DNA of 64,000 nucleotides from Aureimonas ureilytica (GTDB lineage: Bacteria > Pseudomonadota > Alphaproteobacteria > Rhizobiales > Rhizobiaceae), in assembly GCF_001475935.1 (NCBI RefSeq), contig NZ_LDQA01000070.1:1-64000 (forward strand), in the 5' to 3' direction. The notes under the pieces were generated by a model. The model did not search any database. It was not told the DNA's origin and saw only the letters and a list, made by a program, of their open reading frames with translations. Both the position numbers and the translations under genes were made by a program. Positions 2,608-54,842 of the stretch are shown here, piece after piece; the first letter of the stretch is position 1, and the number at the start of each line of letters is the position of its first letter.

Positions 2608-4506
2608 ATGTTTTCCTATTTCGAACGCCTCGTGGACGCCTTTCCCTCGGAGCGGGCCAGTCCGCCCTCGAGCCTATTCGGCTTCATCTGGCACTACGCC
2701 CGGCCGGTGTGGCCGCTGCTGCTGCTTTATGCCATCGGAACGGCGCTGGTTTCGGCCATCGAAGTCTCGCTCTTCGGCTTTCTCGGCCAGATCGTGGACT
2801 GGCTGTCCTCCACGCCGCGCGAGACCTTTGTTCAGAGCGAGGGATGGCGGCTGGCGCTGATTGGCGCGGTCGTTCTTCTGGCGCTGCCGCTTTTGACCTT
2901 CGCCTCATCGCTCATATCGTTTCAGGCGATCTTCGCGAACTTCCCGATGCGCTTTCGCTGGAGCGTCCACAACTGGCTGCTCAACCAGTCGCTCGGCTTC
3001 TTTCAGGATGAATTCGCCGGCCGCATTTCCACCAAGCTGATGCAGACCGCGCTCGCCGTGCGCGAAACGGTGATGAAGTCGATCGGCGTGATGCTCTACG
3101 TCACGGTCTATTTCAGCGGCATCCTCTTCATGATCGCGGCGGCGGACTGGCGGCTCGTGCTCCCCTTTGTCGCTTGGCTCTTCTTCTATGTCCTGCTGCT
3201 GCGCTACTTCATCCCGCGCCTGATGCGCGTGGCCTCGGAACAGGCCGGCGCGCGCGCGGCGATGACGGGCCGCGTCGTGGACGCCTATTCCAATATCGGC
3301 ACGGTGAAGCTCTTCGCCCATACGGAGCGCGAGGCGGTCCACGCCCGGCGCTCGATGGAGGAGTTCCTTCACACGGTTCATGGGCAGGCGCGCCTTATCA
3401 ACCTTTTCTTCTCGACGCTCTATTTCCTAAACTCGCTGCTTCTTTTCTCGGTCGGCGCGGTCGGCATCGCGCTCTGGATCGACAATCTCCTGACGGTCGG
3501 CGCGATCGCGGTCGGTATAGGCCTCGTCCTGCGTCTCAACGGCATGAGCCAATGGATCATGTGGGAGGTCTCGGAACTCTTCGAGAATATCGGCACGATC
3601 CGCGACGGCATCGCGACCTTCACCCAGCCGATCGCGCTGATCGACGCGCCTAAGGCTCAGCCGCTGATCGTCTCGAAGGGCGAGGTCCGCTTCGAGGCTG
3701 TCGGCTTCTCCTATGGTTCGGCCGTGTCGCACCGCGCGGCCGGACCGGTGCTGCGCGACTTCTCGCTGACCATCCGCCCCGGCGAGAAGATCGGTCTGGT
3801 CGGCCGTTCGGGCGCGGGCAAATCCACGCTTCTGAACCTGCTCCTGCGCTTTTACGACGTAGAGAGCGGGCGCATCCTGATTGACGGGCAGGATATCTCA
3901 CAGGTGACGCAGAACTCGCTGCGCTCGCAGATCGGCGTCGTCACGCAGGACACCTCGCTTCTCCATCGCACGATCGGCGAGAATATCCTTTACGGCCGAC
4001 CGGACGCCTCGGCGGATGATCTGACCCGCGCCATCGATCGCGCCGAAGCGTCGCAATTCATCGCGGCGCTGGCCGACAGCGAAGGCCGGCGGGGCCTCGA
4101 CGCGGAAGTCGGAGAGCGCGGCGTCAAGCTGTCGGGCGGCCAGCGCCAGCGCATCGCGATTGCCCGCGTCATGCTGAAGGACGCGCCGATCCTGCTTCTG
4201 GACGAGGCGACCTCCGCGCTGGATTCCGAAGTGGAAGCGGCGATCGCGGAAAATCTCTATCGCCTGATGGAGGGAAAGACGGTGATCGCCGTCGCCCACC
4301 GCCTGTCCACCATCGCCGCGCTCGATCGTCTCGTCGTGCTCGACAAGGGACAGATCGTGGAGGAAGGCTCCCATACCGAGCTTCTGGAGCGTGGCGGCCT
4401 TTATGCGTCGCTCTGGCGCCGGCAGGTCGGCGGATTCCTCGACGCCGGCGATGACGATACGGACGCCCAGCCCGGCCGTATCGGCGCCAAGCGAGCCGCC
4501 GAATGA
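2608..4506 (+). CDS. ABC exporter half-transporter (permease plus ATPase), first of a tandem pair
   Basis: This is a type IV (ABCB-like) exporter subunit of about 632 residues: a six-helix membrane domain over roughly 45-330, then a nucleotide-binding domain. Walker A (GRSGAGKST) is near residue 398, the signature LSGGQRQR near 508, Walker B LLLDEA near 528 and the switch histidine in AHRLSTI near 563, all canonical. An upstream in-frame ATG at 2536 would add 24 residues; I prefer 2608 because MFSYFERL lines up with MMERLLERFERV of the next gene. The following gene overlaps by four bases (ATGA), so the two are translationally coupled and probably form a heterodimer. The substrate is unknown. 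Confidence 0.92.
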   Translation: MFSYFERLVDAFPSERASPPSSLFGFIWHYARPVWPLLLLYAIGTALVSAIEVSLFGFLGQIVDWLSSTPRETFVQSEGWRLALIGAVVLLALPLLTFASSLISFQAIFANFPMRFRWSVHNWLLNQSLGFFQDEFAGRISTKLMQTALAVRETVMKSIGVMLYVTVYFSGILFMIAAADWRLVLPFVAWLFFYVLLLRYFIPRLMRVASEQAGARAAMTGRVVDAYSNIGTVKLFAHTEREAVHARRSMEEFLHTVHGQARLINLFFSTLYFLNSLLLFSVGAVGIALWIDNLLTVGAIAVGIGLVLRLNGMSQWIMWEVSELFENIGTIRDGIATFTQPIALIDAPKAQPLIVSKGEVRFEAVGFSYGSAVSHRAAGPVLRDFSLTIRPGEKIGLVGRSGAGKSTLLNLLLRFYDVESGRILIDGQDISQVTQNSLRSQIGVVTQDTSLLHRTIGENILYGRPDASADDLTRAIDRAEASQFIAALADSEGRRGLDAEVGERGVKLSGGQRQRIAIARVMLKDAPILLLDEATSALDSEVEAAIAENLYRLMEGKTVIAVAHRLSTIAALDRLVVLDKGQIVEEGSHTELLERGGLYASLWRRQVGGFLDAGDDDTDAQPGRIGAKRAAE

Positions 4507-50745: not shown

Positions 50746-51951
50746 TCATACGATGAAGCCCGCCGCGATGAGCGCGAGGGCGACCTGCCAGGGCGGGCGC
50801 GACCAGAGGACCAGCAGCAGGAAGCCGGTGACGGCGAGCAGCATGTCGCGCGGGCTCGTCACGGCATGGGTCCAGACGGGATCGTAGAGCGCGGCGGCGA
50901 GCACGCCGACCACGGCAGCGTTGGCTCCGCGCAGGGCGGCGCGCGCGGATGGGCGCTGCCGCAACTCGTCCCAGAAGGGCAGGGCCGCCAGCACCAGGAG
51001 CAGGCCCGGCATGAAGATTGCGAGCGTTGCCAGAGCCGCGCCGACGAGGCCGCCCGGCGCGGGGGAGAGCGCGCCGAGATAGGTGGCGAAGGTGAAAAGC
51101 GGGCCAGGCACCAGCTGAGCCGCGCCATAGCCCGCGAGGAAGGCATCGGCCCCGACGAAGCCCGGCCGAACCGTCTCAGCTTCGAGGAGCGGCAGCACCA
51201 CATGGCCGCCGCCGAAGACGAAGGCTCCCGAGCGTAGGAACCCATCGAAGAGATGCAGCGCAGGCGAGGGCACGAGCGGGGCGAGGAGGGGCAGAATGAA
51301 GACCAATGCCGCAAAAAGCGCGAGGGCCGCAAAGGCGAGACGCCGGCGCGCCGGCGGGGTGTCATGGAGCGGAGAGGACACCGGTTCCCTTGGCCCGCGG
51401 CAGAAAAAGAGACCCAGAAGCGCACCGACCGCGATCGACAAACCCTGCGCCAGCGCGGTCGGGCCGAGGGCGACCAGCGTCAGCGCCACGAGTGCGATGG
51501 CGGCGCGTTTGCGATCGGGTGTCAGCGTCCGGCTCATGCCCCAGACCGCCTGCGCCACGACAGCGACGGCGAGGATCTTCAGCGATCGAACGAGATCGCT
51601 GCCGGCGCCAGTGTCGAAGCGTCCGGCACCGAGCGCGACGACGTACATGAGAAGGGCGGAGGGCAGGGTGAAGCCAGCCCAGGCGGCAAGCGCACCGCGC
51701 AGGCCCGCACGCTGAAACCCGATGGCGAAGCCCACCTGACTGGAGGCCGGGCCGGGCAGGAACTGGCAGAGCGCCACGAGATCGGCATAGCTCGCTTCGT
51801 CCATCCACTTGCGCCGCTCGACGAAGGCCTGCCGGAAGTAGCCGAGATGCGCGATCGGGCCGCCAAACGAGGTGAGACCCAAAACAAGAAAGACGCAGAG
51901 GGCTCCCGCTGGCTTTGCGGCGGTGGGCGAGACGGAGGGAAGCGCGACCAT
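50746..51951 (-). CDS. chrA: Chromate efflux transporter (long-chain CHR family)
   Basis: ChrA exports chromate. The 401-residue protein has two homologous CHR domains: the first with LTSFGGPIAHLGYFRQAFVE and LCQFLPGPASSQVGFAIG, the second with FVFGGGHVVLPLLEAE and GAAQLVPGPLFTFATYLG. About ten to twelve membrane helices are visible. ATG 51951 was preferred to a TTG at 51990; neither has a strong ribosome-binding site. The AbcR-like sRNA locus lies just upstream. Confidence 0.93.
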   Translation of the reverse strand: MVALPSVSPTAAKPAGALCVFLVLGLTSFGGPIAHLGYFRQAFVERRKWMDEASYADLVALCQFLPGPASSQVGFAIGFQRAGLRGALAAWAGFTLPSALLMYVVALGAGRFDTGAGSDLVRSLKILAVAVVAQAVWGMSRTLTPDRKRAAIALVALTLVALGPTALAQGLSIAVGALLGLFFCRGPREPVSSPLHDTPPARRRLAFAALALFAALVFILPLLAPLVPSPALHLFDGFLRSGAFVFGGGHVVLPLLEAETVRPGFVGADAFLAGYGAAQLVPGPLFTFATYLGALSPAPGGLVGAALATLAIFMPGLLLVLAALPFWDELRQRPSARAALRGANAAVVGVLAAALYDPVWTHAVTSPRDMLLAVTGFLLLVLWSRPPWQVALALIAAGFIV

Positions 51952-52032: not shown

Positions 52033-52150
52033 AAAAGAAAAGCCGAGCTCGAAAGCCCGGCCTGAAGTTGGAATGCCTGGAGCATCCCTGGGAGGAAACG
52101 GCCGGAGAAGAAAGCTCGGGAGGAGGTAAGCTCTCTTCCGTCCGACTGAG
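52033..52150 (-). ncRNA. Candidate AbcR-type (alpha-r15) small RNA
   Basis: On the minus strand a strong intrinsic terminator (GCCGGGC-TTTCGA-GCTCGGC, then TTTTCTTTT) ends a stretch of about 118 bases without a reading frame. It contains two unpaired-looking CCTCCC segments (52118-52123 and 52090-52095), the anti-Shine-Dalgarno motif pair typical of AbcR sRNAs, which repress ABC-transporter mRNAs with Hfq. The second sits in TTTCCTCCCAGGGA, as I recall for the family. The locus lies directly downstream of lsrB, where relatives carry AbcR genes. The 5' end is estimated from a TTTAAT -10 element at 52157-52162. Confidence 0.65.
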
Positions 52151-52197
52151 ACTCAAATTAAATCGATTTTGTGGGTATCACCAGACGCAAAGGCACA

Positions 52198-52214
52198 TGC
52201 CTGCTATGCAGGCA
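52198..52214 (-). promoter_or_regulatory. LysR-type operator dyad upstream of the sRNA
   Basis: TGCCTGC-TAT-GCAGGCA is a perfect 7-bp dyad that contains two T-N11-A boxes. Its centre lies about 56 bases upstream of the inferred sRNA start, the usual place for a LysR-type activator such as the adjacent LsrB. Confidence 0.5.
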
Positions 52215-53310: not shown

Positions 53311-54288
53311 TTATTCGGCCGCTTGCCGCGCGGCGTCAGCGTCCAGAGCCTGAGCCGCAAGCCAGCGCTCGGCTTCGAGCGCAGCCATGCAGCCGAGACC
53401 CGCCGCCGTGACCGCCTGACGATAGACGTCGTCCGCCACGTCGCCGGCCGCGAAGACGCCCTCGACCGACGTCTTCGTGGTGCCGGGCTCGACCCAGAGA
53501 TAGCCGCCATCCTTCTGGCGCAGCTGGCCACCGAAGACCTCGGTGGCGGGCGCATGGCCGATCGCGACGAACACGCCGTGCGTCGCGATCTCCTGGAACT
53601 CGCCCGTTTCGCGGTTGCGCAGACGAACGCCGGTGACCGACTTCATCGGCTGGCTCTGTCCGAGGATCTCATCGACCTCGCTGTTCCAGATGACCCGCAC
53701 GTTCTCCTTGGCGAAGAGCCGGTTCTGCATGATGCGCTCGGCCCGGAACTCGGAGCGGCGATGAACCACCGTCACGGAACGGGCGATATGGGAGAGATAG
53801 AGCGCTTCCTCCACCGCCGTGTTGCCGCCGCCGACCACCACGACATCCTTGCCGCGATAGAAGAAGCCGTCGCAGGTGGCGCAGGCCGAAACGCCGAAGC
53901 CCTGGAAAGCAGCCTCGGAGTCGAGACCCAGCCAGCGCGCCTGCGCACCCGTCGCGATGATCACGGCATTGGCCGTATAGATCGTGCCGCTGTCGCCCTT
54001 GAAGCGGAAGGGGCGAACCGAAAGATCGGCTTCCACGATGAGATCGGACGCCATCTCCGCGCCGACATTCAGCGCCTGAGCCTTCATCTCTTCCATCAGG
54101 AACGGGCCGCCGATCGGATCGCGGAAGCCGGGATAGTTCTCGACATCGGAGGTGATGGTGAGCTGCCCGCCTTCCTGCAGGCCGGCGACGAGCAGCGGCT
54201 TCATCATGGCACGCGCGGCGTAGATGGCGGCCGTATAGCCGGCCGGTCCGGAGCCGATCACGAGAACTTCGGCAAAACGCTCAGACAT
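53311..54288 (-). CDS. trxB: Thioredoxin reductase
   Basis: TrxB reduces thioredoxin with NADPH. The 325-residue protein has the FAD motif GSGPAGYTAAIYAARA, the redox pair in SACATCDGFF, the NADPH motif VVGGGNTAVEEALYL and the closing GVFAAGDVAD. ATG 54288 (MSERFAEVLVIGSG) is the family start; an ATG 33 bases upstream is possible. The order trxB-lsrB is conserved in Rhizobiales and links thiol redox control with the regulator. Confidence 0.96.
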   Translation of the reverse strand: MSERFAEVLVIGSGPAGYTAAIYAARAMMKPLLVAGLQEGGQLTITSDVENYPGFRDPIGGPFLMEEMKAQALNVGAEMASDLIVEADLSVRPFRFKGDSGTIYTANAVIIATGAQARWLGLDSEAAFQGFGVSACATCDGFFYRGKDVVVVGGGNTAVEEALYLSHIARSVTVVHRRSEFRAERIMQNRLFAKENVRVIWNSEVDEILGQSQPMKSVTGVRLRNRETGEFQEIATHGVFVAIGHAPATEVFGGQLRQKDGGYLWVEPGTTKTSVEGVFAAGDVADDVYRQAVTAAGLGCMAALEAERWLAAQALDADAARQAAE

Positions 54289-54842
54289 GGCGAAACCCGC
54301 ATTGATGCTTTTGCCGGACATGGGACCGGCTCGTCCCTCAATCAATACGGGAGGCTTGTTGCGGCGACAACCGAAAGAGCCGCCAACTGGACCCCCCAAA
54401 TCTTGTTTTCCGGCTGTTTACGCTCGAACGCATCGCCGGATGATCCCTTCCGGCATCAAATCGGCGAGATCAGGCAGGCTGAGCGAGACCCGGTTTCGTT
54501 TCCAGCTTGCATCGGCAGGCCATCAGGTTGTGTCCTGCCTGCCACACCGGGCGCGCTTCGACGAATCCGACTGGACGGTGACGATTCGTCTCGCTACGCT
54601 TGCCAAGCTTTCAACACTGGAAAGGGGAGAGTTCATGATCTGTGATATGTTCGTTTCCCCCGCCGGGGCCCGTCGCCATCCTTCGACGCTTCGCCCGGCT
54701 TCAGCTTCGTCCCGGGTCTGATCCCCGCCACAGGCTGTCCATCCGTGTTGTGTCCCCTGCGGACCTGACGCTTTCCCCGATTTCCGTCGCGCCCTGACGC
54801 GGCCACCCGAGGAGACGGCGACGCTTTGCGCGCCGGAACGCC
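54289..54842. other. Divergent intergenic region between trxB and the third ABC exporter
   Basis: About 550 bases separate the two genes. The left part is the trxB upstream region. A 28-codon frame with a good ribosome-binding site lies at 54635-54721 (separate entry). No operator or known RNA was recognised in the rest. Confidence 0.4.
54635..54721 (+). CDS. Possible upstream peptide of the ABC exporter gene
   Basis: A 28-residue frame (MICDMFVSPAGARRHP at the start) follows GGGGAGAG at a suitable distance and ends 121 bases before the exporter ATG. It could be a leader peptide or chance. No attenuator hairpin was seen. Confidence 0.25.
   Translation: MICDMFVSPAGARRHPSTLRPASASSRV

Follow-up and report, generated by a model that had tools for sequence, protein, structure and literature searches.

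A predicted AbcR-type small RNA of divergent sequence behind lsrB in Aureimonas ureilytica

The closest described relatives of the locus examined here are the small RNAs (sRNAs) AbcR1 and AbcR2 (alpha-r15) of Sinorhizobium, Agrobacterium and Brucella, which lie adjacent to lsrB, carry an LsrB-type box upstream and are made of three hairpins with a terminator; hairpin 1 carries an anti-Shine-Dalgarno segment in its loop, and a second motif separates it from hairpin 2. In the published layout the first motif (M1) is in hairpin 1 and the second (M2, GUUCCC) between hairpins 1 and 2 (PMC5461406). LsrB of S. meliloti is reported to bind and activate abcR1 at the same syntenic place as that described below, the consensus GCAT-N3-TG-N3-T standing at -61 to -49 (PMC8844928), and to activate NfeR1 (ar14) as well (PMC10746234); in A. 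tumefaciens, VtlR/LsrB is reported to activate both AbcR1 and VrsA (PMC7486931). The AbcR literature describes activation by LsrB, Hfq-assisted anti-Shine-Dalgarno pairing and a lower uptake of nutrients (PMC8844928, PMC3712013, PMC5461406). In the open-licence literature, to which the search was confined, no report of AbcR in Aureimonas or Aurantimonas was found, and none of the papers among the matches listed holds both Aureimonas and LsrB.

Here, I describe a locus of this kind in Aureimonas ureilytica, in a window of 64,000 nucleotides, that is, the whole stretch of DNA that was analysed. Behind lsrB the minus strand carries what its sequence features predict to be an sRNA gene (Table 1). 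Read along that strand, the order is an LsrB-type box, a promoter, a hairpin with CCUCCUCCC in its loop, a single-stranded GUUUCCUCCCA, hairpin 2 and the terminator, with about 233 bases from the end of lsrB to the start of the sRNA. The 5' end was inferred from the published spacing of S. meliloti abcR1, and the 3' end was set at the T tract. An earlier note, made from the letters of the stretch, had proposed an AbcR-type sRNA at this place from a pair of anti-Shine-Dalgarno segments, the lack of a reading frame and a terminator with a T tract, and these three observations hold: the CCTCCC cores of motifs 1 and 2 are 28 bases apart on the minus strand, the terminator stem is followed by its T tract, and the sole start codon in the transcript stretch (ATG at 52085) opens a frame that overruns the terminator. 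A coding reading of the stretch was rejected on this last ground.

Table 1. Predicted features of the sRNA locus and its neighbours (positions in the window)
Feature	Position	Strand	Remarks
AbcR-type sRNA gene (predicted)	52033..52148	-	about 115 nt; model R1 match 52152-52036, 92.2 bits
LsrB/VtlR-type box GCATAGCAGGCAT (predicted)	52197..52209	-	fits GCAT-N3-TG-N3-T save A for T at position 8
Perfect 6-bp dyad GCCTGC-ATA-GCAGGC	52199..52213	-	overlaps box; two T-N11-A spacings
-35 element CTGGTG	52179..52184	-	read from alignment
-10 element TTAATT	52156..52161	-	read from alignment; TTTAAT at 52162-52157 one base upstream
Target motif 1 CCTCCTCCC, loop of hairpin 1	52118..52126	-	hairpin 1 about 52146-52101
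Target motif 2 GTTTCCTCCCA, single-stranded between hairpins 1 and 2	52089..52099	-	
Hairpin 2 GGGATGCTCCAGGCATTCC	52070..52088	-	
Intrinsic terminator hairpin and T tract	52033..52063	-	stem 52063-52040, T tract 52041-52033
lsrB/vtlR, LysR-type regulator, 298 aa	52381..53277	-	98% identical to A. ureilytica DSM 18598
trxB-like reductase, usual lsrB neighbour, upstream of lsrB	53311..54306	-	
chrA-like chromate transporter, downstream of sRNA	50746..51951	-	neighbour only; position not conserved

The segment 52152-52028 folds at -48.2 kcal/mol against -38.3 +/- 3.3 kcal/mol for shuffled sequences (z -2.98; 0/200 shuffles as good), and in this fold hairpin 1 presents motif 1 in its loop, while motif 2 is left unpaired. 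The terminator scan is weak when taken alone (2 found vs 0.9 expected), and the loose box pattern GCATNNNWGNNNT is not enriched in the window (9 vs 11.7 expected); it is conservation, as read from the comparison of genomes, and not single signals of this sort, that decides the reality of the sRNA.

Indeed, lsrB was found in 57 of the 61 relatives searched, and in 20 of the 21 same-genus genomes the sRNA element lies behind it, the place published for S. meliloti. In an alignment of 25 Aureimonas copies the invariant columns concentrate in the two motifs and the terminator, and the single folds of 26 copies (these 25 and one from Consotaella, L096) mostly follow the same three-hairpin plan, most of them leaving both motifs unpaired, motif 1 in the apical loop. 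The exceptions in accessibility are L071, L088 and L099, in which motif 2 is partly paired (mean unpaired 0.53-0.61), L071 also folding differently. Since MAFFT had misaligned hairpins 1 and 2, so that the RNAalifold consensus of this first alignment was poor, covariation was counted on a loop-anchored alignment of 25 sequences, 20 of them distinct, in which the misfitting copies L017, L071, L072, L088 and L099 were kept. In this alignment the five pairs that close the loop of hairpin 1 are formed in 91% of 100 cells, as against 60% in shuffles; all five show changes on both sides, and their covariation amounts to 0.873, with 0.261 in shuffles (0/500 shuffles as high) and no more than 0.354 when the pairing is slid.

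The same comparison bears on the gene that follows. In the window chrA is on the same strand, some 80 bases past the terminator, as would be expected of a gene whose cis-acting 5' leader or attenuator is the element itself; yet chrA is the next same-strand gene in only 8 of the 26 copies (the window and 7/25), and elsewhere, where a convergent aminotransferase or another gene comes next, the sRNA is still conserved. With a downstream neighbour that varies in this way, the leader of chrA was rejected, and I consider it highly improbable.

The kinship of the sRNA with AbcR was assessed with the Rfam family ar15 (RF02345) and, from the opposite side, with a model (R1) that rests on the MAFFT alignment of the 25 Aureimonas copies (16 pairs). 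A covariance-model search with ar15 had been put forward as a check in the earlier note, and its outcome goes partly against the proposal: there is no match in the window at the gathering score (40 bits), and searches of 451 bases at E <= 5 and of the organism's own genome at E <= 10 found none either, but three of the 21 Aureimonas genomes do give weak matches at the orthologous place (E 0.0013 in G018, 0.0050 in G007 and 0.0066 in G013). A further weak match, in G016, is elsewhere (E 0.56). Among the 61 relatives ar15 exceeds its cut-off in 9, and 25 give a match at E <= 1; the locus L075 reaches 28.8 bits. The weak same-genus matches prove little on their own because, at E <= 1, ar15 also matches 3 of 14 unrelated control genomes.

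The reciprocal model reaches farther. Of 69 other lsrB loci or stretches, 39 match R1 at E <= 0.0032, all on the strand of lsrB, and family-wide 74 of 151 genomes match at E <= 0.001. At a Brucella-group locus (L139) R1 scores 36.2 bits at 3171-3285 and ar15 70.7 bits at 3176-3287, and the spans of the two models agree likewise in G028, G021 and G036, where ar15 is above its cut-off too. The weakest among the 39 matches lean on their place, for their score equals the background in the own genome, where the next best R1 match after the window stands at 25.8 bits. The gap between that background and the score at the locus bears out the claim of a single copy, and six of the weaker own-genome loci, scanned against Rfam, gave no convincing match. 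In A. pseudogalii (L064/G011) there is no copy behind lsrB, nor one anywhere in the genome at E <= 0.01 with R1 (150 of 2406 candidates scored), an apparent loss of AbcR. Two loci of relatives, L025 and L029, have two tandem AbcR-like copies behind lsrB, as in S. meliloti.

The best sub-threshold Rfam matches in the window are not to ar15 but to suhB/mmgR (RF00519; 22.6 bits, cut-off 41) and ar14/NfeR1 (RF02344; 21.3 bits, cut-off 58.8), both below their gathering scores, and this suggests that the sRNA might be an anti-Shine-Dalgarno RNA of one of these other alphaproteobacterial families which is found near lsrB by chance. NfeR1 has anti-Shine-Dalgarno loops too and is reported to be likewise activated by LsrB in S. 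meliloti (PMC10746234), and MmgR has GUUUCCUCCC followed by a terminator and belongs to the suhB family, which shares an Rfam clan with ar15. Against this, the place behind lsrB and the spacing match those of recognised AbcR genes, with which box and motifs are collinear; the AbcR layout is followed as well, with three hairpins, the last of which is the terminator, an anti-Shine-Dalgarno segment that hairpin 1 carries in its loop, and motif 2 separating hairpin 1 from hairpin 2, whereas NfeR1 differs in place and layout and MmgR is shorter and without the hairpin 1 anti-Shine-Dalgarno loop; moreover, separate Aureimonas loci score 35-41 bits with ar14. Membership of another family is therefore improbable. 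The Aureimonas sRNA is best read as a divergent orthologue of AbcR: position, operator, layout and reciprocal model make it, by comparison, an AbcR orthologue of divergent sequence, both of whose target motifs contain CCUCCC. It differs from AbcR1 and AbcR2 in lying beneath the reach of the Rfam model, in being a single copy and not a tandem or a pair, and in its motif 2, which is GUUUCCUCCCA and not GUUCCCCUC; the motif between hairpins 1 and 2 reads GUUUCCUCCC where the published M2 is GUUCCC. It is filed as a variant of AbcR rather than as a plain member since it falls below the Rfam family score. The central proposal of the earlier note, an AbcR-type sRNA behind lsrB with an LsrB-type box, is thus supported by conservation, by covariation and by the model link to recognised AbcR.

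The box of the window has A at position 8, where the published consensus has T; A is frequent at this position in the genus, T being found in only 11 of the 26 copies. With either base allowed, the box stands 75-85 bases ahead of TCCTCCC in 23 of the 26 copies (there is no recognisable box in L063, L071 and L072), and 78-81 bases ahead of it in 31 of the 34 loci (L108-L141) that belong to other genera and carry classical AbcR; motif 2 follows TCCTCCC after 23-30 bases in both groups. The background of this A/T pattern, true boxes included, is 150 in 771,388 positions. When the box-bearing copies are anchored on the box, TGG of the -35 element comes at one fixed distance in 23/23, T of the -10 element is found in 23/23, and CATGC or TATGC lies ahead in 23/23. 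Two details of the earlier note need amendment here. The TTTAAT that it took for a -10 element is present, but the alignment favours TTAATT one base downstream; likewise, the perfect dyad, which contains two T-N11-A spacings and has its centre some 58 bases ahead of the inferred start, does exist, but it recurs in only 3 of the 23 box-bearing copies and was ruled out as the conserved operator, which is instead GCAT-N2-CWG-N-CATG. With a stricter, 15-base form of the box, and no more than one mismatch allowed, the own genome yields four sites, and the reversed pattern yields none; in the sequence read at two near-exact sites (L158 and L160) there was no sRNA signature.

As T-N11-A and GCAT half-sites are generic and the box of the window is one base off the published consensus, the sRNA could be real and its box read by another LysR-type regulator, LsrB having no part in its control. 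The constancy of the distance in the classical loci speaks against this, as does the DNA-binding part of LsrB, which is nearly invariant across Aureimonas, Phyllobacterium and Brucella-group proteins, and binding of LsrB at the equivalent site has been published for S. meliloti and A. tumefaciens (PMC8844928, PMC7486931); control by a different regulator is unlikely, if slightly less so than membership of another sRNA family, and LsrB is kept here as the probable reader of the box. In Aurantimonas sp. CSK15Z-1 (L102) the RNA follows lsrB at a distance of about 1.8 kb and has its box at -81, and in other-genera loci that have no lsrB in reach (L151, L153-L156) the box is found at -79 to -82 in four of five. 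Judged from these places, the predicted box travels with the RNA rather than with lsrB.

The LsrB proteins of the Aureimonas group mostly lack one cysteine. At loci L062-L107 there is no cysteine at 142 (equivalent to C144 of A. tumefaciens) in 40/46, and C271 (equivalent to C273) is kept in 45/46, counting one at 272; at loci L108-L141 a cysteine is present at 140 or 142 in 34/34. The C144-C273 disulfide proposed for A. tumefaciens LsrB (PMC11975290) could not form in the LsrB of the Aureimonas group, because the equivalent of C144 is mostly absent.

By analogy with the described systems, LsrB, the product of the adjoining gene, would bind the box at 52209-52197 and activate the sigma-70-type promoter CTGGTG / TTAATT. 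The resulting transcript of about 115 nt would have three hairpins, exposing one anti-Shine-Dalgarno segment in the first hairpin's loop and another in the stretch that joins hairpins 1 and 2; together with Hfq, for which the genome has one gene, it would pair with the ribosome-binding sites of mRNAs, translation would be blocked and nutrient uptake reduced. The Aureimonas AbcR orthologue is very probably a trans-acting sRNA, which LsrB would activate and which, with the help of Hfq, would block the translation of uptake mRNAs.

Its targets probably include substrate-binding proteins of ABC transporters of the LivK type. In a duplex-energy test with starts chosen by their Shine-Dalgarno sequences, 30 genes for substrate-binding proteins were no different from 37 control genes (p 0.65 for motif 1, p 0.30 for motif 2), one of the 31 substrate-binding loci (L214) having no usable start. 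Counted post hoc, at least seven perfect complementary bases to motif 2 stand just before the start in 6 of 18 Peripla_BP_6 genes but in none of the 13 SBP_bac_5 genes or the 37 window genes; taken together, the 31 substrate-binding genes differ from the controls with a Fisher p of 0.007. Starts were here assigned by signal-peptide likeness, the motif, the start rule and the split were chosen after the null duplex test, and 4 of the 18 Peripla_BP_6 matches are below the Pfam cut-off. This complementarity may reflect strong expression only, since GGGAGGA is a strong Shine-Dalgarno sequence too, and the complementarity of Peripla_BP_6 genes to motif 2 is a lead.

The box is also found ahead of other candidate sRNAs. 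The pattern GCATNNCWGNNATGN{49,79}TCCTCCC, which joins box, spacer and TCCTCCC, has 33 matches in 19 of the 21 Aureimonas genomes, and its reversed control has 0 in all 21. By coordinates, 14 of these matches are the lsrB locus, and the remaining 19, in 12 genomes, are away from it. In the 17 of these 19 that were read, each is followed by a terminator-like hairpin and a T tract, and the terminator loop itself carries GGTCCTCCCCC in 16. Rfam, applied to nine off-lsrB loci, gave ar14 at 35.0-41.5 bits (below its cut-off) in seven, mmgR at 29.1 bits in another and no match in the last. The own genome has such a second locus (L179, L159) on contig C106, from 74678 on the plus strand, which folds at -29.0 kcal/mol (z -6.4) and has no relevant Rfam match. 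A. pseudogalii, which is without AbcR, has three box-linked anti-Shine-Dalgarno loci. LsrB, as far as such patterns indicate, probably drives several anti-Shine-Dalgarno sRNAs in Aureimonas. A parallel is VrsA of Agrobacterium, an extra sRNA of about 300 nt reported to be controlled by VtlR/LsrB beside AbcR1 (PMC7486931), with no kinship to the Aureimonas RNAs shown here. A broader proposition, which I hold to be evenly poised between true and false, is that LsrB is the dedicated driver of an anti-Shine-Dalgarno sRNA regulon, made up of the divergent AbcR and one to three NfeR1- or MmgR-like RNAs with the same box, most of them having an anti-Shine-Dalgarno terminator loop, of which A. pseudogalii would have lost AbcR and kept three others.

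To sum up, AbcR, known from symbionts and pathogens of the Rhizobium group, would extend to the Aureimonas lineage in a form missed by the standard family model; surveys made with the Rfam ar15 model would undercount AbcR, because the Aureimonas form escapes its detection. The constant spacing of box and promoter before a much-changed RNA suggests that the wiring, from LsrB to an anti-Shine-Dalgarno sRNA, has been held while the RNA drifts. Along the same line, whether one LysR-type regulator has a whole set of such RNAs under its control becomes, with the extra box-linked sRNAs, a question open to direct testing in a non-symbiotic genus. If this were true, strong ribosome-binding sites would be subject to a general, tunable block set by a single regulator, the sRNA copies being interchangeable parts.
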